Positions 3,323 through 53,964 of a stretch of 64,000 nucleotides of DNA are shown piece by piece. The notes under the pieces were generated by a model, which saw only the letters and a list, made by a program, of their open reading frames with translations, was not told the DNA's origin and ran no database searches. How positions within the stretch are numbered: the stretch's first letter is position 1; each line of letters opens with the position of its first letter. A program made the translations under genes and the position numbers. Source of the DNA: Paeniglutamicibacter cryotolerans (GTDB taxonomy: Bacteria > Actinomycetota > Actinomycetes > Actinomycetales > Micrococcaceae); assembly GCF_014190875.1 (NCBI RefSeq), contig NZ_JACHVS010000001.1:1488001-1552000 (forward strand), read 5' to 3'.

Positions 3323-4606
3323 ATGCGCCCATCCTGGAGGGCCGGGACAGTCGGGCTCATGGCAACAACGTTGGTAGTGGGGATGCTCAGCGCCTGCGCA
3401 ACGCCCACTCCACCCCCGACCGGCACCCCGGCCTCTTCGCCGAGTTCCACGCCGAGCGGGGAAAATGCGCCCCCGACCCAGTCCCCGACCTCAACCCGGA
3501 ATCCGCCGTCCCCCAGCGCCTCGGCGATACGGCCGCCTTCGGCCAGCAGCCAGACAGCCAGCTCCGCGCCCTCGTCCGCTGCACAACGGGCGCTGGACGG
3601 CCTCAGCCTTGAACAGCGTGTGGGGCAGGTGCTGATGATGGGGATTCCTGCCACCGGCGCCGATGCTCCGACACTGCGGATACTGGGTGCCGATCATGTA
3701 GGAAATGTCTTCCTCAAGGGGCGCAGCAAGCTGGGCGTCTCCGGGACCAGGCACGTGGTTGACGCGGTGCGGGCCACCGGCGCACCCGCTGCTACCGGTG
3801 GCATCCGGCGCTTCGTGGCCACCGACCAGGAAGGCGGCGCGGTCCAGGTGCTCAGCGGCCCGGGCTTCAGTGCCATGCCTGCAGGAATCGTGCAGGGCGG
3901 CTGGACCGCCGACCGCCTGGAAGCCTCGGCCCGGACTTGGGCCGTGGAACTGGCCGACGCCGGTGTCGACGTAAACCTGGCTCCGGTCACCGACACCGTT
4001 CCCTCGGCTGCCTTCGCCCCGTCGAATGCGCCCATCGGTGCCTTCGGCCGGGAATTCGGCTATACCACCCAGACGGTGTCCACCCACTCGCTGGCGTTTT
4101 CCCGGGGCATGAAGTCAGGCGGCGTCCAACCCGTGGTGAAGCATTTTCCCGGCCTCGGCCGGGTCACCGCCAATACCGACACCACTGCCGATGTCCTAGA
4201 CACGGTGACGACCCGGAACGATCAGTACCTTCAGCCGTTCGCGGCCAACATCGAGGCTGGAAACGGATGGGTGATGGTCTCCAACGCCCGCTATGAGCGC
4301 ATCGATCCGGAAAATATCGCCCCGTTCTCGTCCAAGGTCATGGAGGGGATGCTGCGCTCGGACCAGGGGTTCTCCGGGATCATCATTTCCGATGACATGT
4401 GCAAGGCCGTCGCCCTCTCGGCGTGGGCGTACGGGAGCAGGGCAGTTAATTTCTTCAACGCCGGAGGCACGATGATGCTGTGCGTCAATGCTGCCGCTAT
4501 TCCCGCCATCACCCGGGCGCTGGTCGCCGAGGCACGGGAATCATCGGCCTTCAGGGCCCGGATCGATGCGGCAGCATTGCTCGTCCTGCGGGCCAAGCTC
4601 GGGTAG
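3323..4606 (+). CDS. Lipoprotein glycoside hydrolase family 3 (NagZ-like beta-N-acetylglucosaminidase)
   Basis: A 427-residue GH3 protein. ATG 3323 follows AGGAG by 7 bases and starts a lipoprotein signal peptide (MRPSWRAGTVGLM...) ending in the lipobox LSAC, so the mature protein should be lipid-anchored outside the membrane. A 60-residue Pro/Ser/Thr-rich linker follows, then the catalytic barrel. The barrel carries the family signature KHFPG (substrate-binding Lys-His) and SDDM near the C-terminus, where the catalytic aspartate lies. NagZ-type GH3 enzymes cut N-acetylglucosamine from peptidoglycan or chitin fragments, which suggests wall recycling or scavenging; the exact substrate is inferred. 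The longer reading frame from 3221 lacks a signal peptide and is rejected. Confidence 0.85.
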   Translation: MRPSWRAGTVGLMATTLVVGMLSACATPTPPPTGTPASSPSSTPSGENAPPTQSPTSTRNPPSPSASAIRPPSASSQTASSAPSSAAQRALDGLSLEQRVGQVLMMGIPATGADAPTLRILGADHVGNVFLKGRSKLGVSGTRHVVDAVRATGAPAATGGIRRFVATDQEGGAVQVLSGPGFSAMPAGIVQGGWTADRLEASARTWAVELADAGVDVNLAPVTDTVPSAAFAPSNAPIGAFGREFGYTTQTVSTHSLAFSRGMKSGGVQPVVKHFPGLGRVTANTDTTADVLDTVTTRNDQYLQPFAANIEAGNGWVMVSNARYERIDPENIAPFSSKVMEGMLRSDQGFSGIIISDDMCKAVALSAWAYGSRAVNFFNAGGTMMLCVNAAAIPAITRALVAEARESSAFRARIDAAALLVLRAKLG

Positions 4607-4627
4607 GGAAGCGCGAGCCGGCGCGGC

Positions 4628-5116
4628 CTACCTGCCCAGCAGGGTCTTCAGCCGTCCCTGATTGAGAAGCCCGGATTTCTCGGCTTCTAGGAAGTATTCA
4701 CGCTGCCAGTCCCGGGTCCTGCGGGCCTGGTTGCCGGGACATGGGGTCCACGGGGCATAGATGCGGAATCCGCGCTTGCCTTCCCGCCCGGGAACGGTGG
4801 CGATCCCGTGGCGTTCCAAGGCCTCGAAGGGCAACACGAACAGGCCGGATCCCAGGGCATCGACCAGATGGATCAGCGCCCCGTCGAGTCCGTCCGAGGC
4901 CAGCAGCGGACGGATCGGCCCGGATTCCGAGCGCCGCCACAGGGTCACGAAGGCGCCGGCCTTCTTCGGTGTGACAAGCGCCTGGCGGTAGGCCCACGCC
5001 AGTCCCCCGAGCCTGATGCTGTGGGCGGCGTAGCGGGCGCCTTGCGGATCGGTTTCGGCTTCGATCGCCGTTGTGTCGAGCCCGATCAGGCCGGGCAGTA
5101 CATTTTCCGGGTTCAC
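4628..5116 (-). CDS. MepB-family protein
   Basis: A 162-residue protein resembling the MepB family, first known from the staphylococcal mepRAB multidrug locus, function unknown. The recognisable part is the C-terminal half: FRIYAPWTPCPGNQARRTRDWQ followed by YFL, which matches the family ending (PW...QA.KTQ.WQ..YF). No signal peptide or membrane segment. It converges on the GH3 gene and is separated from the upstream protease gene by a strong hairpin, so it is probably a single-gene unit. No mepA or mepR relative lies next to it. Confidence 0.7.
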   Translation of the reverse strand: MNPENVLPGLIGLDTTAIEAETDPQGARYAAHSIRLGGLAWAYRQALVTPKKAGAFVTLWRRSESGPIRPLLASDGLDGALIHLVDALGSGLFVLPFEALERHGIATVPGREGKRGFRIYAPWTPCPGNQARRTRDWQREYFLEAEKSGLLNQGRLKTLLGR

Positions 5117-44805: not shown

Positions 44806-46050
44806 GTGAGCGCCGGAGCCGTAACAACAGAAAAGGGCGCCCCGGATTCTCCCCACTGGCGGAGAAATTTGACGGTCTGTTCCTTCGGATCCTTCGCGAC
44901 CATTGGCGCGATGACTCTGCTCCTGCCCATTCTGCCGATCTACGTGGCCGGGCTCGGCGTGAGCGGCCAAGCCGCACTCACCCTGTGGTCCGGCGTTGCC
45001 TACGCCGCAACGGTCGTGATCGCGGCACTGACCGCGCCGTTGTGGGGCAGGCTGAGTGACAGGTTCGGCCGCAAGCCGATGTTGATCCGGGCCAGCCTAG
45101 GCATGGCAGTCGCGATGTCGCTCATCGGCATGGCCTGGAACATCGAACAGCTGGTTGCCTTGCGCCTTCTGGCCGGGCTGCTGGCAGGGTACGCCTCGGG
45201 ATCCACGATCCTGGTTGCGGCTCAAACGCCCAAGCGCCACTCGGCAGCCGTGTTGGGTGTCTTCTCCTCGGCGATCATGGCCGGTCATGTCGTCGGACCG
45301 CTGGCCGGCGGTTTTATCGGTGAAATATTCGGTGTCCGGAACACGTTCCTTGCGGCCGGTGCGCTCATTTTTCTGGGATTCCTGGGTACCGCGTTCCTCT
45401 TGAAGGAAGAAAGGAAGTCCCCGGTCCGATCCCGGGCAACGCATGGCGGGGTAGGCGGGGGTGCCGCGAAAACGACTCATCCTCACGTTGCTGTCCCTCT
45501 CAGCACTACTGATGTTTGCGGTGATCTCGGTGGAACCGGTCATCACCGTGCACATCGAACACCTGTTGGCCGGGGAAGCGCCCGTCGCCGTGGTTGCGGG
45601 GATCGTCTTCGCGCTCGGCGCTGCCGGCGCCATCATCTCCGGACCTGGATTGGGACGGCTGGCCGATCGGATCGGGCACACCCGGGTCCTGACGCTGAGT
45701 CTGGCGGCAGCCACGGTGTTGCTGGCGTTACAGGCTGCTGCGCTCGATATCTGGCGGTTCGCACTTCTCGCTTTCTCATGGGAGTGGCGTTGGGCGGGGT
45801 AACTCCCACGCTTGTCGCCACCCTTGGCGGCCTAGTGCCGGAAAGCAGCGTTGGTTTGGTGTTGGGAAATAGCGTGTCGGCCCAGTACGCGGGCCAGGTG
45901 ATAGGCCCGCTGGCAGCCGGCTGGGTGGGCGGGGTCCTGGGGACGAGCGCCGTCTTCTTCATGACCGCCATCGTGGCCGGGGCTGGAACGGTGTTGGCGT
46001 TCGGCATCCGTCGACGGCTGACTTCGCACGACGCAGTCAATCCGGGATAG
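44806..46050 (+). pseudogene. MFS drug transporter gene with two compensating frameshifts
   Basis: GTG 44806 starts an MFS protein (LLLPILPIYVAGLGVSGQAA, motif A GRLSDRFGRKP, motif C-like GHVVGPLAGGF) that reads well to LKEERKSPV. Around 45430-45465, near a GGGGG run at 45457-45461, the coding signal moves to the next frame (RKRLILTLLSLSALLMFAVI). Near 45775 it returns to the first frame (FLMGVALGGVTPTLVATLGG) and ends at 46050. The nominal single frame contains about 110 scrambled residues (Arg/His/Gly-rich) in the middle. It is a disrupted multidrug-type transporter, or two sequencing errors 320 bases apart. Confidence 0.8.
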
Positions 46051-46535
46051 TGCCGCGGCAGGCAAGGGCCACCCCTCAGCTAATTCTGGCAGGGCCCGAC
46101 AAGCAATGAGACAAGCCGTCGCGTGGCCGTGGTCCACTGCTCGCCCCAACCCAGTGTCATCTCGCCAGGGCTGCCCCACCTGTGGAAGGGCGGCCCGAGA
46201 GGCCTATCGGCATCGGGCCACGCGGCCCACTGGCCATGGGGCTGTTTTGTTTGGCCTCCGGGCCTGTCGGCTTCATTCGTGATGGGTTCTCGAAAAGAAC
46301 AGCCGTTGATGCCACAGGGGACCTTGATCGCGCTATCACCCATGCCATCGGAGGGCCCATTGCGCCAGCGTTGCTTGAACGCCGGCTTCCGCCTCGGGGC
46401 TGGGGCGGCGACCCGGTCACAGTGGCAACGGCGGGCGAATCGCGAGCCATGTCAGCTGCCGTGCCGTGGCTCGTTGCGCCGCTCGGAAACGGATGAGATC
46501 CGTGTGCCGGCATGTCCCTGATATCCGATTTGATT
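46051..46535. other. Gene-poor stretch
   Basis: 485 bases after the broken MFS gene without a convincing gene. Several overlapping frames are open on both strands (for example 46182-46496 plus) but none shows a recognisable domain or a clear codon bias. It may be decayed sequence. Confidence 0.4.
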
Positions 46536-46805
46536 CTACGGATCGGTCAGGGGCTTGCCCCAGGGATAGTCCACCCATGGCCCGGTGCCCACTTCCGGGC
46601 ACGCACTTTCCGCGCCTTTTCGAACGACGTGCGCATCGGCAGGGTAACGTCCGCCTTGGAGAACGGTGTCGTAGTGGACGTGAATTTCTTCGGTCCCATC
46701 GGCAAACCGGGCGTCGTAGTGGAAACAGCGGAACCGGCGCTTGAGGTAGAACGACCGACCCCAGTATGCCGTGGCCCGGAACGCAATCGGTAGTTGAGGA
46801 TTCAT
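46536..46805 (-). CDS. Small hypothetical protein, distal gene of a coupled pair
   Basis: An 89-residue product: AYWGRSFYLKRRFRCFHYDA, then TEEIHVHYDTVLQGGRYPAD. Third codon positions are mostly G/C, as in real genes here, and the plus-strand alternative has a poorer pattern. No family recognised; rich in aromatic and basic residues, no membrane helix. Its ATG overlaps the stop of the upstream small gene (ATGA). Confidence 0.5.
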   Translation of the reverse strand: MNPQLPIAFRATAYWGRSFYLKRRFRCFHYDARFADGTEEIHVHYDTVLQGGRYPADAHVVRKGAESACPEVGTGPWVDYPWGKPLTDP

Positions 46806-47041
46806 TTATCCATCTTGGCACGGCCGTAAAACGCGTGAAAACGGTTGTGGCGGCAGGCAAAGCGGTATTTCCATGGCGACTGGGAGAAGGGCGCGACCAA
46901 TTCCTGCCACCTGGCTCGATCGCCGTTCCTGGTCGGGGGCATTGCCCGCGAGCTGACCGATTGCCGGTCCCTGACATGGTCGATGCCTGCCAAGCGGGCC
47001 CCATCCGAAATGTGACCCATAAGAATCCATGGTTGCCGCAA
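46802..47041 (-). CDS. Small hypothetical protein, proximal gene of a coupled pair
   Basis: A 79-residue product: ISDGARLAGIDHVRDRQSVS, later RWQELVAPFSQSPWKYRFAC and FHAFYGRAKMDK. Basic, no membrane helix, no known domain. The 4-base overlap with the next small gene and shared direction suggest a two-gene unit just past the tRNA-Ser terminator. Codon bias is moderate, so a non-coding explanation remains possible. Confidence 0.4.
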   Translation of the reverse strand: MRQPWILMGHISDGARLAGIDHVRDRQSVSSRAMPPTRNGDRARWQELVAPFSQSPWKYRFACRHNRFHAFYGRAKMDK

Positions 47042-47127
47042 GGCGTATCTGGTGTAAGTGGATCAAGCGTGCTGCCGACATATCGCTACCATCAGTGTTG
47101 ACGGTGGAGATATTCGAGGGAAAACAA

Positions 47128-47172
47128 AAGAAGGCTCTTGGTTTCCTTTTCAAGGAAACCAAGAGCCTTCTT
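47128..47172 (-). terminator. Rho-independent terminator of tRNA-Ser
   Basis: Perfect 21-bp stem (arms 47128-47148 and 47152-47172) with a 3-base loop, beginning 6 bases after the tRNA 3' end on the minus strand and followed there by a T-rich run (TTTGTTTT). Confidence 0.88.
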
Positions 47173-47177
47173 GCTCG

Positions 47178-47265
47178 CGGTGACGGTGGGATTTGAACCC
47201 ACGGTACGGGGTTACCGTACACAACATTTCGAGTGTTGCACCTTCGGCCGCTCGGACACGTCACC
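47178..47265 (-). tRNA. tRNA-Ser (anticodon CGA)
   Basis: The 88-base minus-strand sequence folds as a class II tRNA. The acceptor stem is GGTGACG/CGTCACC, the anticodon stem is CAACA/TGTTG around loop CTCGAAA (anticodon CGA, codon UCG). A long variable arm TACGG...CCGTA follows, then T-arm GTGGGTTCAAATCCCAC, with G at the discriminator position. CCA is not encoded. A strong terminator follows. tRNA genes are common integration sites, but no integrase or repeated 3' end is seen here. Confidence 0.95.
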
Positions 47266-47281
47266 AGACTGAACCACTGTA

Positions 47282-48196
47282 CCGGAAGGAGGTCCCAGAA
47301 CCCAAAACGGGGGTTCCCCGATGCAGAATGGGGCCATGTCCCGCCAAGCAGGCCCGCCGTACGCCCGAATTACTGTGTGCCTGTGCCTGGCCCCGTCAGG
47401 GCCTCGGCGGCTCATTGGGTGGCGCTACCGCGGTCGAGGTCTTCTTCCGTTCCAGGTGGACCCAGCCCGGCAGTGGATCGCACGCCCCGCCGCCGACAGG
47501 AAATTGGCGAGCAGGGACATCCATGAACTGCCCACGGATCGTGGCTGTACCTGCATCTGCGGTGCTCGGGACTTCGCCTCGGGTTTGCGTGTGAGCCAAG
47601 GGGCGCCCACGGCGGCCTTCCGCGCCATCGAAAAGATCGGTGTCGGCCGGGACGGAATCGCGATGCCCTAGCAGGCGACGCTCGCCGCGTTGGAACCTGC
47701 GTCCGGTCCGCTGGATCTGCGGGCATAGAAGGAAGCCGCCGGCGATGCGACACGGAACCCGGCTGGGGAGGGACGCAAGAAGGGTGCAGCCAGGACGCTG
47801 CCGACTGCCCGGGGCTTCCTGCAGGTGGACGCGCGGATCCGCCAGGCCTGCCACACCCGCCGCTGGGACACCAGGCCCAAATGCAAACCCTGACGGTCAG
47901 CACCTACTTCTTGGAGGACTTTCTCAGCGTGGGTTTTCGCACCGGTCCTTTTTGTCCCGCGGCTTCACGCTGGAGGGACTTTCCGCTGGCAGCTAGCCCG
48001 CTCATTCGATGACTCGTTTCGTGGATCCCCAGAAAGCCTGGAACCGACACTGGCAAGCCTTGATGCGCCTCCGCAACAATCTGCGAGGCCCTTGCTTTGC
48101 CTGTGCGGTGCGGTGGGCGTGACTCAGGTAACCTTTGATCAGCGGAAAATTGATCTCCAGCAGGAGCAACGTCGCTACGAAATGGGGAAGTGCAAC
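47282..48196. other. Gene-poor region between tRNA-Ser and the H-NOX gene
   Basis: 915 bases with one possible small gene (47321-47671) and otherwise overlapping open frames without domains. GC content looks lower than in the flanks, and no repeat, integrase or transposase sequence is seen. The last 50 bases carry the ribosome binding site of the H-NOX gene. Confidence 0.5.
47321..47671 (+). CDS. Doubtful small hypothetical protein
   Basis: A 116-residue frame with fairly G/C-biased third positions. The product is basic and has a short Cys motif (CTCICGARDFAS) and no recognisable fold. ATG 47336 is an alternative start. Overlapping frames on the minus strand are also open, so it may not be a gene. 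Recorded because it is the best candidate in the gap. Confidence 0.35.
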   Translation: MQNGAMSRQAGPPYARITVCLCLAPSGPRRLIGWRYRGRGLLPFQVDPARQWIARPAADRKLASRDIHELPTDRGCTCICGARDFASGLRVSQGAPTAAFRAIEKIGVGRDGIAMP

Positions 48197-48748
48197 GTGA
48201 AGGGAATTATCTTCAATCTGCTGGAGGAGGTTGTGGTCCGGCACCATGGCGAGGATGTTTGGGAAAACCTGCTCGATGAATCGGGTTTGGACGGCGCCTA
48301 CACGTCTCTGGGCAGCTATCCCGATGCCGATGTTCTTCAGTTGGTCAGCATTGCCGCCCACACACTCGATTCGACCTCTTTCGAGGTGCTGCGCTGGTTT
48401 GGACGCCAAGCCATGCCGCTGCTCGCTGCCCGGTACCCGGTCTACTTCAGTGGACACTCGACCACCCGGCCTTTCGTGCTCAGCGTCAACAGCATCATCC
48501 ATCCCGAGGTCCGCATGATCTATCCAGGTGCGGACGTGCCAACTTTCGGTTTTCGCGACGAACCGGATGGCTCGCTGTTGATGACCTACGCCTCAGCACG
48601 AAAGTTCTGTGCGCTGGCCCAAGGCTTCGTCGAGGGTGCGGCCGACGAATTCAGTGAAACACTTGGCTTCGAGCACCTGCAGTGCATGCACAATGGCGAC
48701 GCGACATGCATCTGCCGCATCATCTTCCACGGTCCGAAACCGGCCTGA
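48197..48748 (+). CDS. H-NOX heme nitric-oxide sensor
   Basis: A 183-residue stand-alone H-NOX (HNOB) domain. GTG 48197 follows GGGGAAG by 6 bases and gives the canonical start VKGIIFNLLEEVV. The heme ligand His102 (SIIHPEVR) and the propionate-binding triad Tyr131-x-Ser133-x-Arg135 (YASAR) fall at exactly the same numbers as in the Thermoanaerobacter H-NOX. Position 140 is Leu, not the distal Tyr of O2-binding members, so NO (not O2) is the likely ligand. Cys138, Cys163, His165 and Cys171 resemble the zinc site of proteobacterial H-NOX proteins. The stop is directly followed by the start of a GAF-GGDEF-EAL gene. In proteobacteria such pairs let NO control c-di-GMP. Confidence 0.93.
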   Translation: MKGIIFNLLEEVVVRHHGEDVWENLLDESGLDGAYTSLGSYPDADVLQLVSIAAHTLDSTSFEVLRWFGRQAMPLLAARYPVYFSGHSTTRPFVLSVNSIIHPEVRMIYPGADVPTFGFRDEPDGSLLMTYASARKFCALAQGFVEGAADEFSETLGFEHLQCMHNGDATCICRIIFHGPKPA

Positions 48749-50731
48749 GTGACCATGGACCATATTGAGCAGGCCGAGGCGGAGACCTGGAAACTCCAAC
48801 GACGGCTTGACCGGGAACGGCGAGCTCGCTTGGAAGCGGAATCGATTGCCGAGCAAGGTTTTCGGGACCTCTTTGAAAAGAACCAGCAACTACTCATGCT
48901 GGAGGCCATTGCCGATGCTGCGAATCAGGCGGATTCCATCACCGACGCCCTGCAATCCGCCCTGCGCACGGTATGCCGTTTCACCGACTGGCAGGTTGGC
49001 CACGCCTACATCGTGGAAGAATCCAAGGAGGGGCCGTACCTGGCACCAACCTCGATCTGGGACCGGGTGGAGGAAGAGTCCTTTCACGATTTCTATCTGT
49101 CCACCGAGACCCTCGAATTCAGGCCCGGTGCTGGCTTGCCCGGCCGCGTCCTAGCCTCAGCGGAGCCTGTCTGGATCAGGGATCTCGCCCTGGACTCCAA
49201 TTTTTTGCGTACAGCCACGTCCGGTCGAGCTGGGCTGAAGTCCGCTGCCGCCTTCCCGATACTGCTTGGCACCGAGGTGACGGCCGTCCTGGAGTTCTTC
49301 TCCAACCGGGTGCTGGAACTCGATGAAACCCTGATGCGGCTGATGGCAAAAATCGGCACGCAACTGGGACGGGTAGTCGAACGCAATCGCGCCCAGGAAC
49401 AACTGATTCACCACGCTTTCCATGACCCGCTGACGCGGCTGCCGAACCGTGCCCTTTTCGCGGACCGGCTGGCCCATGCGGTCGCACGCAGCCATCGGCA
49501 TGGCGAGGACAAGTTTGCCGTGCTGTTCATAGACCTGGACCGCTTCAAGCTGGTCAACGACAGCCTTGGCCATCCGGCAGGCGATGACCTGATCGTGCAG
49601 GTGGCAGAGCGTTTGCGAGCCTGCCTGCGAGAGGAAGACACGCTGGCTCGGATGGGCGGCGATGAATACACTGTGCTGCTGGACAGTATCGAGGACGTCA
49701 ATGACGCGATGCGTATCGCCGAACGCCTCATCAGCGCATTTCAGGAACACTTCGTGATAGCGGGTGAGGAACTGTTTGCCAGCGCGAGCATTGGTATTGC
49801 CACCAGCACCGGCGGCGGTGAGACTGCCCCAGAGATCCTTCGCCATGCCGATCTGGCCATGTATCGAGCCAAATCACTGGGCAAGGGCCGCTTTGAGCTT
49901 TATGACCCGGGCATGCATGAGCTGGCAGCCAGTCGCCTTGCGCTGGAAAACAGGTTGCGGCGCGCGTTGCATGAGAACGAATTTGTGGTTCATTACCAGC
50001 CGATCATCTCCTTGAGCGAAGGGGGCATCGTCGGTGTCGAGGCGCTGGTGCGCTGGCGTAAATCGGAGACCGAACTCGTCTACCCGGATGGCTTCATTTC
50101 CGTAGCCGAGGAGACCGGCCTGATTCTGTTTCTTGGTATGTGGGTGCTGCGAGAGGCGTGCAGCACCATGGTCCGCTGGCACAAGGAATTCCCCAGAACC
50201 CCCGAGCTCACCGTCAGCATCAACGTTTCTGCCCTCCAATTCGCCCAGAATGACTTTGTGCAGCAGGTCTCCAAGGTCCTTCGGGAAACCGGGATTCGTC
50301 CGGAAACGGTCAGTTTGGAGATTACCGAAAGCGTTTCCATGACGAATTCGGAACACACCATGACTGTGCTCGCCCGCCTGCGTGCACTGGGCGTGCGCAT
50401 TAGCATCGACGATTTCGGCACAGGATATTCCTCATTGGCCTACCTGCACCGTTTCCAGCTGGACACTTTAAAGATTGACCGCTCCTTTGTGGCGCAGCTA
50501 GATGACAGCAAGGAGGGGCTGCACGTTGTGCAGTCCATCATGGATCTAGCACAAAACCTCGGCCTTAATGTTGTTGCCGAGGGTGCGGAAAACGCGCGGC
50601 ACGTCGCTCAATTGACGGCGATGGGCTGTGAATTCGCGCAGGGATTCTATTACTCCAGGCCGGTCGAAGCAGGCGCCCTATCCGCGCTGCTGGAGGAACA
50701 AGGCCAGCAACCGAATTCGATAGTTGCCTGA
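48749..50731 (+). CDS. GAF-GGDEF-EAL cyclic-di-GMP enzyme, H-NOX partner
   Basis: A 660-residue signalling protein. Residues 1-50 form a coiled coil, about 50-215 a GAF domain, 225-385 a GGDEF domain and 400-650 an EAL domain. The GGDEF motif is GGDEY with an intact I-site (REED five residues before), so diguanylate cyclase activity and product inhibition are possible. The EAL domain keeps GVEALVRW, ITESV, IDDFGTGYSSL and KIDRSF, so it should be an active phosphodiesterase. GTG 48749 begins right after the H-NOX stop; ATG 48755 is the alternative. No membrane helix. H-NOX most likely controls it through contact. Confidence 0.93.
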   Translation: MTMDHIEQAEAETWKLQRRLDRERRARLEAESIAEQGFRDLFEKNQQLLMLEAIADAANQADSITDALQSALRTVCRFTDWQVGHAYIVEESKEGPYLAPTSIWDRVEEESFHDFYLSTETLEFRPGAGLPGRVLASAEPVWIRDLALDSNFLRTATSGRAGLKSAAAFPILLGTEVTAVLEFFSNRVLELDETLMRLMAKIGTQLGRVVERNRAQEQLIHHAFHDPLTRLPNRALFADRLAHAVARSHRHGEDKFAVLFIDLDRFKLVNDSLGHPAGDDLIVQVAERLRACLREEDTLARMGGDEYTVLLDSIEDVNDAMRIAERLISAFQEHFVIAGEELFASASIGIATSTGGGETAPEILRHADLAMYRAKSLGKGRFELYDPGMHELAASRLALENRLRRALHENEFVVHYQPIISLSEGGIVGVEALVRWRKSETELVYPDGFISVAEETGLILFLGMWVLREACSTMVRWHKEFPRTPELTVSINVSALQFAQNDFVQQVSKVLRETGIRPETVSLEITESVSMTNSEHTMTVLARLRALGVRISIDDFGTGYSSLAYLHRFQLDTLKIDRSFVAQLDDSKEGLHVVQSIMDLAQNLGLNVVAEGAENARHVAQLTAMGCEFAQGFYYSRPVEAGALSALLEEQGQQPNSIVA

Positions 50732-50810
50732 AGCCCGCGCGCCAAGAGCGATCCTGGGTGGTTGAGCTGGACGCTTGGTTTTTAGGGATCCGGTTTCATT
50801 TGGGTTAGGC

Positions 50811-51293
50811 TCAGCGCATCGCCTTGAAGAAGTCCGAGAGCATCGACGCGCATTCTGCCTCGCGCACCCCGGGGAAGACCTCGACCCAGTGGTTCAGCCG
50901 GGGTTCGCGCAAGATGTCGAACACGGAACCGGAAGCCCCCGCCTTTTCGTCCCAGGCTCCGAAGACGACCCGGGGGATCCTGGCAAGGATGATGGCACCG
51001 GCACACATGGCGCAGGGTTCCAGGGTCACCACGAGGGTGCAGTCTTCCAGCCGCCAGCCGTCGTCGATTCCTGCGGCACGTAGTCGCGCTGCCGCATCGC
51101 GGATGGCCATGATTTCGGCGTGTGCCGTGGGATCCCCATCGGCCTCGCGCTCGTTGCGACCAGTGCCGAGGACCTCGCCATCGGGGCCCACAATGACCGC
51201 ACCGATGGGCACGTCGCCGGTCTGCAATGCGGCCGTGGCCTCGGCCAGGGCCAGGCCCATCAGGGCCTGCTGGGTGGATTTGTCGCGAATCAC
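50811..51293 (-). CDS. tadA: tRNA adenosine(34) deaminase TadA-like
   Basis: A 160-residue zinc deaminase. The active site is HAE (TAHAEIMAI) with PCAMCAGAI as the PCxxC zinc ligands, and the DVPIGAVIVGPDG and RVVFGAWDEKAGASGS stretches are typical of bacterial TadA, which converts A34 of tRNA-Arg(ACG) to inosine. Divergent from upp, a frequent actinobacterial arrangement. Confidence 0.92.
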   Translation of the reverse strand: MIRDKSTQQALMGLALAEATAALQTGDVPIGAVIVGPDGEVLGTGRNEREADGDPTAHAEIMAIRDAAARLRAAGIDDGWRLEDCTLVVTLEPCAMCAGAIILARIPRVVFGAWDEKAGASGSVFDILREPRLNHWVEVFPGVREAECASMLSDFFKAMR

Positions 51294-51349
51294 GCTTCCA
51301 ACTGTAGTTCCGGGGCCACTGGGGGTCGAACGGCTGGTAGTTTTGGAGC

Positions 51350-51988
51350 ATGCGCGTACAGGTAATCGACCACCCGTTGGTGGCCCATAAGGTTTCGGTC
51401 CTGCGGGATAAGAACACCCCCTCGCCGGTCTTCCGGCAGCTGACCGACGAGTTGGTGACCTTGCTGGCCTACGAGGCCACCCGCGAGGTCAAGACCGTCC
51501 AGGTCGAGGTCGAAACCCCGGTGGCGGTGACCATCGGCACCGCTTTCGCCAAACCAACCCCGTTGGTCGTCCCGATCCTGCGTGCCGGGCTCGGCATGCT
51601 CGAGGGGATGACCCGTCTGGTTCCCACGGCAGAGGTCGGCTTCCTGGGCATGGCCCGCAATGAGGAAACACTCGACATCATCACCTACGCCGAGCGCCTG
51701 CCCGCCGATCTGACCGGCCGCCAGGTGTTCGTGCTCGATCCGATGCTCGCCACCGGCGGCACGCTGATCGAATCGATCAAGTTCCTCTTCGACCGCGGCG
51801 CCGAAGATGTCACCTGCATCTGCCTGATCGCCGCACCGGAAGGACTGGCCCGTCTGGAAGCAGCCTACGGAGACAACGACAAGGTGCACCTGGTGCTCGC
51901 CTCGCTGGACGAGCGTCTCGACGAAAACGCTTACATCGTCCCTGGCCTCGGCGATGCCGGTGACCGCCTCTACGGGGTGGCCCACTAG
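51350..51988 (+). CDS. upp: Uracil phosphoribosyltransferase
   Basis: A 212-residue PRTase that makes UMP from uracil and PRPP. The PRPP loop is [14 protein letters not shown] (about residues 124-137). The uracil-binding C-terminal motif is [13 protein letters not shown]-terminus [20 protein letters not shown] is typical. Pyrimidine salvage; single-gene unit closed by a terminator. Confidence 0.95.
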
Positions 51989-52002
51989 TCGACCGCCTCA
52001 CT

Positions 52003-52067
52003 AAAAGGCGTCGCTTGCGCACCTCCTTCCCACACCTCGGGAAGCGGGTCGGAAGCGACGCTTTTTT
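52003..52067. terminator. Bidirectional terminator between upp and the GT39 gene
   Basis: AAAAGGCGTCGCTT (52003-52016) pairs with AAGCGACGCTTTT (from 52053), with one G·U pair, and is followed by TTTTTT on the plus strand. On the minus strand the other arm supplies TTTT. It lies just before the stop codon of the convergent GT39 gene. Confidence 0.8.
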
Positions 52068-53964
52068 ACCGCGCCGGCCCGGTGGCGGTCAAGTCGTACA
52101 GCACCGTTCCATTGGCCTCGGTCGGGATGAAGGTGGCACTGACCCAGTCGTTGATCTCCTTGGATGTCCGCGATCCGCCATGGGACTTTTCCGGCAGTCC
52201 ACCGCCGATCCAGTAGTGGATATCCCCTCGCGAGACCATGGTCTTGAACTGTGCAAGCGTGGGGAAGGGATCTGTGCCGTTGAATCCGCCAGCAGGCATT
52301 ACCGGGAGCCCGGTGGCCAACTGGTAGCCGGCCGCGTTGTTCGCCCCGATGGCCGCCGCCACCCAGCGGTAGGAATCTCCACCCTCGCGAAGTAGCCGGA
52401 CCGCCGCGGCGGAGGGGACAGGCGCCTGCACCAACCCGCCGGGAATCGTCGGGGCTCCGGCGGGGTGATGGCCGAACCCGGAGTGGTGCGCGATGGTCGG
52501 GCGCGGCCCGGCGATGATGATGGCGCCGGTCTTGGCCACCTGGGTTGTAGCCGCCGAATAGGCTGCCGGTGCAGCCAGTGCCGAGGCGATGGCGAGCACC
52601 GCAGCCACCGGGAGCAGGATCAGTGACACCCTCGAGTTCGCGGGACGCCGAGCGCAGAGGGCCAGCCCGATGGCGCCGGCCAGCGCAGCCATGGCCACGT
52701 ACCCGCCCCAGCCCTGGAGGAAGCCCCGCCCGGTCAGGTACCAGGCCCAGAAGCCGGTGGCCGCGACGGCCGCGCCGAGCATCGTGATGGCCCCGGTGTG
52801 TTTGCGGTGCCGCCACAGCAGCCATGACCCAAGCCCGATCAGTGCGCCGATCGCCGGGACCAGCGCCACGGTGTAATAGGTATGAATGATGCCGCGCATG
52901 AACGTGAAGACCAGCCCGGTGAGCAGCAGCCAGGTTCCGAAGGCAATGACCATGCCGGTGAATTGCCGGCCAGCGGGGATCCGCCACGCCCGGGTTCGGT
53001 AAAGCACCCAGGCCGTGCCGCCGAGCAGGATCAATGCCGCGGGCAGCAGCCAGGAGGCCTGGATGGCGAAGCCTCCGCCGAAGAGCCTGAACAGCCCGGC
53101 GGTCAGTGTGCGCCGGGTGCCGACGCTGCCGTCCTCGGTGCCGCTGAGCCGGCCCAATCCGTTGTAGCCGAATGTCAGTTCAAGCACCGAGTTGTGCTGG
53201 GACCCGCCGATATAGGGCCGGGCGGACGCCGGCCAGAGCTCCACCAGCAGCACCCACCAACCAGCGGCGAGAACCAGGCCGGCAGCGGCCGCCAGCAGGT
53301 GCCCGATCCGCCGGACCCATCCGATGGGCGCCGCCAGCAGATAGGCGAGCCCGAACCCGGGCACCACCAGCAACACCTGCAGCTGCTTGGTCAGGAAGCC
53401 CAGCCCCAGTAGTGCCCCGGCCGCGAGCATCCACCACACTGCCTGTTTCCCGTTCTGCAGTGCCCGGCACAGGGCGTAGGCCGCCGCCGTCATCAGCAGC
53501 ACCACCAGGGCGTCGGGGTTGTTGTACCTGAACATCAGCGTGGCCACGGGCGTCAGTGCCAGCACGGAACCGGCGAGTAGTCCTGCAGGCCGCCCGGCAA
53601 CCCTGGCCACTGTGGCGTAGAGCAGGAAGAACGCAGCGAGTCCCATGAGTACCTGGGGCACGAGGATCGAGTAGCTGTTGAGTCCGAAGACCCGCACTGC
53701 CAGGGCCGGGATCCAGAGCGAGGCCGGTGGCTTGTCCACGGTGATCGAGTTCGATGCGTCGAAGGAGCCGAAGAGGAATGCCTCCCAGCTTTTCGATGCC
53801 GCTTGGATCGCCGCCGAATAAAACGGGTTTGCCCATCCGTTGACTCCCAGGTTCCACAGGTAGAGCACACCGGTTCCTGCCATGAGCACCACCAGCGCCC
53901 AAGCCTCGGCTGGCCGCGGTGGGCCAGTCGTTCGAGGAAGTGCTCCCGTGGCGGGGGAGCTCAT
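52066..53964 (-). CDS. GT39/ArnT-like membrane glycosyltransferase
   Basis: A 632-residue GT-C membrane protein with about 11-12 helices. The extracellular loop 1 carries the PMT-type motif NGWANPFYSAAIQAASKSWE, followed by ASNSITVDKPPASLW, typical of actinobacterial ArnT-like enzymes. The C-terminal ~130 residues are an extracellular domain. It should transfer a sugar from a polyprenyl phosphate to an outside acceptor. Its ATG overlaps the GT2 stop by four bases (ATGA), so the polyprenyl sugar donor is probably made by that partner. Confidence 0.88.
   Translation of the reverse strand: MSSPATGALPRTTGPPRPAEAWALVVLMAGTGVLYLWNLGVNGWANPFYSAAIQAASKSWEAFLFGSFDASNSITVDKPPASLWIPALAVRVFGLNSYSILVPQVLMGLAAFFLLYATVARVAGRPAGLLAGSVLALTPVATLMFRYNNPDALVVLLMTAAAYALCRALQNGKQAVWWMLAAGALLGLGFLTKQLQVLLVVPGFGLAYLLAAPIGWVRRIGHLLAAAAGLVLAAGWWVLLVELWPASARPYIGGSQHNSVLELTFGYNGLGRLSGTEDGSVGTRRTLTAGLFRLFGGGFAIQASWLLPAALILLGGTAWVLYRTRAWRIPAGRQFTGMVIAFGTWLLLTGLVFTFMRGIIHTYYTVALVPAIGALIGLGSWLLWRHRKHTGAITMLGAAVAATGFWAWYLTGRGFLQGWGGYVAMAALAGAIGLALCARRPANSRVSLILLPVAAVLAIASALAAPAAYSAATTQVAKTGAIIIAGPRPTIAHHSGFGHHPAGAPTIPGGLVQAPVPSAAAVRLLREGGDSYRWVAAAIGANNAAGYQLATGLPVMPAGGFNGTDPFPTLAQFKTMVSRGDIHYWIGGGLPEKSHGGSRTSKEINDWVSATFIPTEANGTVLYDLTATGPAR

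Follow-up and report, generated by a model that had tools for sequence, protein, structure and literature searches.

Pairing of a stand-alone H-NOX protein with a GGDEF-EAL enzyme is established, and direct regulation of the enzyme has been reported, for SWOO_2751/SWOO_2750 of Shewanella woodyi (PMC8738867) and for Hnox1/Lpg1057 of Legionella pneumophila (PMC8846402), in the portions of those papers used here. The scheme for grouping zinc H-NOX proteins in PMC7108781 gives, in its excerpted sections, the Legionella protein as an example of group 2 and one from Pseudomonas sp. as an example of group 3. The only characterised member of group 3 is that of Caulobacter; the relevant passages of PMC12329717 report that it forms an NO complex, that the NO form does not inhibit the kinase in vitro, and that oxidation of its zinc-ligand cysteines does. 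Micrococcaceae are already listed in group 3 in a 2022 review (PMC8738867), whose excerpts say that its authors knew of no Gram-positive species with a reported putative NO-sensing H-NOX, and call this a potentially interesting area. Placement of the present host in Micrococcaceae draws on a FAD-monooxygenase, among whose best plasmid matches are Citricoccus, Kocuria and Pseudarthrobacter, along with Pseudomonas.

We examined 64,000 nucleotides of the actinobacterium Paeniglutamicibacter cryotolerans (this whole stretch is called the window), which include an H-NOX (haem-NO-binding) gene at 48197..48748 on the plus strand. The gene has a GTG start, a TGA stop and 183 encoded residues, and a Shine-Dalgarno-like GGGGAAG can be read upstream of the start (48184..48190, plus strand). 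Its product has the H-NOX fold and matches the Pfam family HNOB (PF07700) at 1e-35. In an alignment, it retains the proximal histidine H102, P115, and the Tyr-x-Ser-x-Arg motif as Y131, S133 and R135; position 140 is Leu, and the distal tyrosine is lacking, as in the NO-selective subclass of H-NOX proteins. C138, H160, C163 and C171 make up a complete Cys3His motif of candidate zinc ligands, each numbered one below the Shewanella oneidensis ligands Cys139, His161, Cys164 and Cys172 in the numbering excerpted from PMC7108781. Three Cys with His or Gln is the ligand pattern of group 3 in the excerpts of that scheme, and is common to group 2 as well. An extra cysteine beside the zinc site, C173 (48713-48715), occurs in only 6 of 25 rows, those of the window, two genomes from another genus of the family (g7) and three Pseudomonas. 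In our H-NOX tree, an analysis separate from the published group network, the window protein falls with those of Pseudomonas, Caulobacter sp. and rhizobia, apart from Vibrio. Judged by its sequence, it looks like a group-3 protein, and is predicted to bind both haem and zinc. The first-pass annotation of this DNA had named the same His, Tyr, Ser and Arg residues, the missing Tyr140 and a probable zinc site; all of these hold, the last as a full set of candidate ligands.

The TGA of the H-NOX gene (48748) directly abuts the GTG start (48749) of a 660-residue GAF-GGDEF-EAL protein, encoded at 48749..50731 on the same plus strand and in the same reading frame. As a protein with GGDEF and EAL domains that adjoins an H-NOX gene on the same strand, it is an H-NOX-associated c-di-GMP enzyme (HaCE). 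Its GAF_2, GGDEF and EAL domains all score above Pfam cut-offs, at residues 62-211 (48932..49381, with a GAF fold in the model), 223-380 (49415..49888) and 401-638 (49949..50662), respectively, all on the plus strand. The GGDEF domain has its active-site motif as GGDEY at 303, the last letter being Tyr, with an RxxD motif (REED) at 294, five residues upstream; the EAL domain retains EAL, N, E, DD (in DDFGTG), K, E and Q. We take these motifs to have catalytic roles, and the protein would be both a cyclase and a phosphodiesterase. Only one promoter-like site was found in 47800-50850, on the other strand, where 0.9 would be expected by chance.

The pairing is recurrent. At 10 loci, a homologue of the partner (46-66% identity) lies behind an H-NOX homologue in the same order and orientation. 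Long tblastn matches to the GGDEF-EAL region occur at 14 loci; in 10 of these, all from the same H-NOX clade, the match extends through the GAF domain, while in the remaining four (L080-L083), from another H-NOX clade, it begins at partner residue 200. The GAF domain had been read initially as an added second input, a view we abandon, as the domain is present in the 10 same-clade partners and in a Caulobacter kinase partner. The rest of that first observation, including the touching stop and start codons and the precedent for such pairs in proteobacteria, is correct in nearly every detail as to anatomy, and its functional reading is partly supported: the window unit is a transferred pair of an already known kind.

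Like the S. woodyi and Legionella pairs, the window pair joins a stand-alone H-NOX to a GGDEF-EAL enzyme (passages of PMC8738867 and PMC8846402). It differs in its high-GC actinobacterial host, in being known from genes alone, and in an H-NOX that looks like group 3 where excerpts of PMC7108781 place that of Legionella in group 2. The window partner has a GAF domain ahead of GGDEF. The H-NOX of Caulobacter sp. HMWF025 (L012), which is not the strain of PMC12329717, is 52-54% identical to that of the window and has the same zinc ligands without C173; its partner has the GAF domain and the N-terminal helix described below. The output described for Caulobacter HnoK, in passages of PMC12329717, is a histidine kinase with a receiver domain, whereas that of the window is GGDEF-EAL. 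Among named relatives, three Pseudomonas pairs (L004, L005, L010) come closest, with 67-70% identity for H-NOX, 61% for the partner, and the same order and architecture; in them six bases separate the stop from the next start, where those of the window abut. In four actinobacterial loci (L080, L082, L083, L084), the H-NOX also adjoins a regulated output, GGDEF-EAL in three of the four, but all four partners have HNOBA (PF07701) where the window partner has the helix, and the H-NOX proteins belong to another clade, those of L080, L082 and L084 having 25-27% identity to that of the window.

Residues 13-48 of the partner (48785..48892, plus strand) form a conserved helix common to other H-NOX partners, which we propose as a docking element. 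When other H-NOX loci were searched by tblastn with the partner, its residues 10-73 were matched, in whole or in part, immediately downstream of H-NOX genes with partners other than GGDEF-EAL. In the extracted downstream frames, the shared N-terminal segment is present in GGDEF-EAL, GAF-kinase-receiver and plain kinase partners. Its 36-residue consensus is xAxLxRRLERERxARxEAExIAERGxRxLYxxxQxL, with R7, R10, R15, A18, E19, E23 and L29 invariant in 17 partners. Between the 10 GGDEF-EAL and the 7 other partners among these, mean identity is 0.52 in the helix and drops to 0.12 and then 0.07 over the two following stretches of 36 residues, in an ungapped comparison that understates the later segments.

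We searched with a 22-row profile of the helix in 14 whole genomes that bear H-NOX and obtained 20 matches at E<=0.1, of which 16 had E-values under 1e-5. Fifteen of the 16 strong matches lie directly behind an H-NOX gene (13 of the 15 had themselves gone into the profile); the remaining one is a HisKA kinase from genome G913, which has an H-NOX elsewhere. Eighteen genomes from the genus of Pseudomonas locus L004 gave 10 matches in 9 genomes, every one behind an H-NOX gene and seven of them new, one of these being a kinase that follows a very dissimilar H-NOX. In total, 22 of 23 distinct strong matches, 13 of which were already in the profile, stand directly behind an H-NOX gene. Among 396 genomes of the phylum, for some of which the best 19 candidates were scored, strong matches occur in only five, the same five that hold the closest H-NOX relatives, apparently in the same draw of genomes. 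The other eight matches in the phylum are weak (E 2.7e-4 to 0.0075), with no H-NOX within their 3-kb loci, and five distant H-NOX relatives gave no helix match in that search.

In 3963 frames, a 17-row profile recognized plasmid-borne partners outside its own rows, from rhizobia (3e-16 and 1.5e-14), Pseudooceanicola (1.4e-5), Persicobacter JZB09 (1.9e-4), Vibrio (3.4e-4), Rhodobacteraceae SC52 (1.5e-3), Pseudoalteromonas (0.012) and Persicobacter psychrovividus (0.031). From 3.9e-4 on, plasmid partners are intermixed with five weak matches that have no H-NOX (L142, L143, L145, L146 and L147), loci included because of prior weak helix matches. A Comamonadaceae partner (L118) was not reported by this profile at E<=10, and its segment aligns by eye. 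Helix-less relatives also exist: the four scanned partners from another actinobacterial clade all bear HNOBA instead, and the archaeal relative L120 has an unrelated neighbour gene. In a Sinorhizobium partner (L115:4513-6518), the helix lies in a frame at 4513-4914 and GAF-GGDEF in another from 4773, the gene being either broken or mis-sequenced.

No Pfam family above cut-off covers the helix in the scanned proteins; in the G913 kinase, residues 6-55 match HEPN_SAV2148 below cut-off (E=0.0047). A sequence search of the PDB returned nothing at E<=1. An AlphaFold model of H-NOX and partner fused as one chain shows a single unbroken helix at residues 187-244, equivalent to partner residues 3-60. 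Its pTM is 0.50, residues 184-190 have pLDDT below 50, and the relative lie of H-NOX and helix is unfixed; against human sGC, the rmsd is 9.8 and 11.8 over model residues 1-238 and 1-241, respectively. The contact has also been approached by HDX, reportedly by Rao in 2017 and Guo in 2018. That work placed the H-NOX side on helices A-C and F, as summarized in a passage of PMC7108781.

In the open-access literature, as represented by listings and passages, we found no description of a shared helix in H-NOX partners. The excerpted passages of the signalling-helix paper PMC1592074 make no statement on helices of stand-alone H-NOX partners. From the alignments, the N-terminal 36-residue helix common to partners of unlike output appears to be new here. 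The outputs found behind it are GGDEF-EAL, GAF-kinase-receiver, plain HisKA kinases, PAS-GGDEF-EAL and a protein without a Pfam match. That last protein (L091:2040-2771) lies directly behind an H-NOX gene and has no match at 0.01. We regard it as an even bet that the helix is the common docking plug of stand-alone bacterial H-NOX proteins, that outputs have been swapped behind it, and that possession of the helix is enough to mark a protein as an H-NOX client, even one encoded elsewhere in a genome. A HisKA/HATPase kinase with the helix at its start (L150, G913:C4:242449, also L137), whose 3-kb locus holds no H-NOX, is a candidate second H-NOX client in trans.

The site of the pair can be compared across 15 genomes of the genus, counting that of the window, all of which match the window at a tRNA-Ser (CGA) gene (47177..47265, minus strand) and at upp and a deaminase gene (50811..51293, minus strand). 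The latter has deaminase domains, is presumably tadA, and marks the right-hand border common to the genus. None of the 14 other genomes has HNOB, and none matches the pair's DNA within the 5-6.5 kb (4 kb in one genome) taken around the site. Twelve of the 14 have an intact AlkZ-like gene in the interval from tRNA to tadA (PF06224, E=9.5e-23 in the one copy scanned); in L056 it is split over two frames, and in L066 there is no AlkZ-like match and only about 100 bases separate tRNA from tadA. In the window, the corresponding DNA is a decayed part of this gene (47361..47875, plus strand; E=6e-23, with stronger values where the tRNA stretch was taken in) in two frames with two stops, and homology to the other genomes restarts at about 50805-50848. 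Because a stump is left and homology resumes to the right of the pair, we place the pair in an inserted segment of some 2.9 kb, approximately 47876..50805, that replaced the rest of the AlkZ-like gene and is missing in 14 of 14 congeners. The tRNA neighbour noted in the first-pass annotation is confirmed, and what it took for gene-poor DNA is the AlkZ-like stump. A mobile element was considered and rejected: 46000-52100 contains no flanking direct repeats of at least 18 bases, its one hairpin lies beside the tRNA, and no integrase was noticed among the listed open reading frames of the window. Farther left, a gene that we take to be MFS-like (44806-46050) has its middle, about 45461-45802, in another frame; the two frame shifts reflect either sequencing errors or decay, in which case two decayed genes would lie close to the insert.

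The pair is rare in the surrounding taxa. Counting the window's own genome each time, HNOB occurs in 3 of 395 family genomes and in 9 of 396 from the order, and a protein search found relatives of the window H-NOX in 10 of 396 genomes of the phylum. No H-NOX was confirmed in viral contigs. The pair is present in 2 of 15 genomes of g7, at one shared place and at 91% DNA identity. At 0.585 (H-NOX) and 0.591 (partner), its GC content is the lowest of 21 window genes examined; in codon cost among the same 21, the partner ranks second and H-NOX third, behind a gene we presume to be PAP2-like, the gene names in this comparison being our assumption throughout. Window, g7 and Pseudomonas sequences form one clade in both trees (99/96 for H-NOX, 97/99 for the partner), which are midpoint-rooted and thinly sampled, the partner tree without kinase partners and the H-NOX tree without distant rows and L083, whose H-NOX frame was read short. 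In the partner tree, this clade belongs to a starred group otherwise made up of Pseudomonadota. In the H-NOX tree, the nearest further rows are also Pseudomonadota, at weak forks, and the wider clade takes in other actinobacterial H-NOX proteins with kinase-type or unassigned partners, so that either H-NOX entered actinobacteria more than once or these rows are unresolved; its starred branches require at least two label changes. Within the clade the trees disagree, the partner tree uniting the three actinobacterial rows (97/97) and the H-NOX tree pairing the window with Pseudomonas (91/78, weak and not starred). The donor was most likely a lineage near Pseudomonas, named no more closely because of the midpoint roots and thin sampling. 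The signs of transfer are strong: the earlier suggestion that the pair may have been transferred is supported by the empty sites, the scarcity in the family, and both lines of evidence to which that suggestion had pointed, composition and the phylogeny of the two proteins.

Our best explanation, to which we assign a probability of roughly 0.72, is a horizontally acquired two-gene H-NOX/HaCE unit in which H-NOX sits on the partner helix and its haem or zinc state sets the balance of GGDEF against EAL. The soluble haem and zinc protein would be seated on the N-terminal helix, which occurs almost exclusively beside H-NOX genes. A switch in the state of the haem (through NO), of the Cys3His zinc site (through thiol oxidation), or of both would reorient the H-NOX subdomains; the change would pass down the helix and through GAF, shifting GGDEF synthesis against EAL hydrolysis of c-di-GMP. 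If S. woodyi is a guide, the signalled state would lower c-di-GMP, the sign of the response being borrowed from that system. Several points count against this explanation: the model geometry of H-NOX and helix is unfixed, GGDEY stands for GGDEF, promoter-like sites are at chance level, other actinobacterial H-NOX proteins fall in the wider H-NOX clade, and both trees are thin. In addition, the characterised group-3 H-NOX was not NO-signalling in vitro (passages of PMC12329717).

Vertical descent, with the pair ancestral to the family and lost in most lineages, would account for the partner-tree clade of three family rows and for the one place shared by two g7 genomes. Yet the pair is absent from all 14 congeners and present in only 2 of 15 g7 genomes, it displaces a decayed gene, and none of the anchors from the window (tRNA, AlkZ gap, tadA/upp) has a match in the 19-kb g7 loci. 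Its GC is deviant in the window and not in g7 (0.70-0.72), and the H-NOX tree joins the window to Pseudomonas, at that unstarred fork. We consider such descent improbable, and slightly more so the idea that the partner has no activity or only a structural role, the pair being mere passing cargo. Decay of the neighbouring genes, the AlkZ-like stump and the MFS-like gene with its shifted middle, would fit cargo, but next to a stump with stops both frames of the pair are open, with the motifs taken as catalytic present (GGDEY for GGDEF). Moreover, with 4 GGDEF and 4 EAL matches in the host genome (contigs C1 and C2) against 0 or 1 of each per congener (one of each in 9 of 14, none in 5 of 14), the host has other c-di-GMP enzymes, more than is usual for the genus.

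The signal itself has a serious rival to NO in redox input. Oxidation of C138, C163 and C171, and of C173, may rearrange the zinc site and drive the partner, with the haem-NO form silent as in Caulobacter. The group-3 zinc ligands of the window protein, the restriction of C173 to 6 of 25 rows, the Caulobacter data (passages of PMC12329717) and the disulfides that four cysteines form in Vibrio cholerae H-NOX (a passage of PMC7108781) all favour this alternative. Against it, the haem-pocket residues are retained, the output is of the GGDEF-EAL type, like that of the NO-responsive S. woodyi pair, where Caulobacter has a kinase, and a single group-3 protein has been studied so far. We hold it as a tentative alternative, behind the combined reading above. 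The pocket without the O2-binding tyrosine is confirmed, and the initial statement that the protein should sense NO is weakened by the silent NO form of the Caulobacter protein (PMC12329717, in excerpt). An NO-to-c-di-GMP switch is plausible by analogy with S. woodyi (passages of PMC8738867), and we regard NO and thiol sensing as both possible because the window protein has the same zinc ligands as that of Caulobacter and the extra C173.

The window thus presents a motif-complete pair in a Gram-positive species, with a readable history of transfer and empty sites in related genomes. The part most worth following is the shared helix. If it is the H-NOX plug, it would allow H-NOX clients to be recognized from sequence whatever their output, and would supply a short peptide with which to map the interface.
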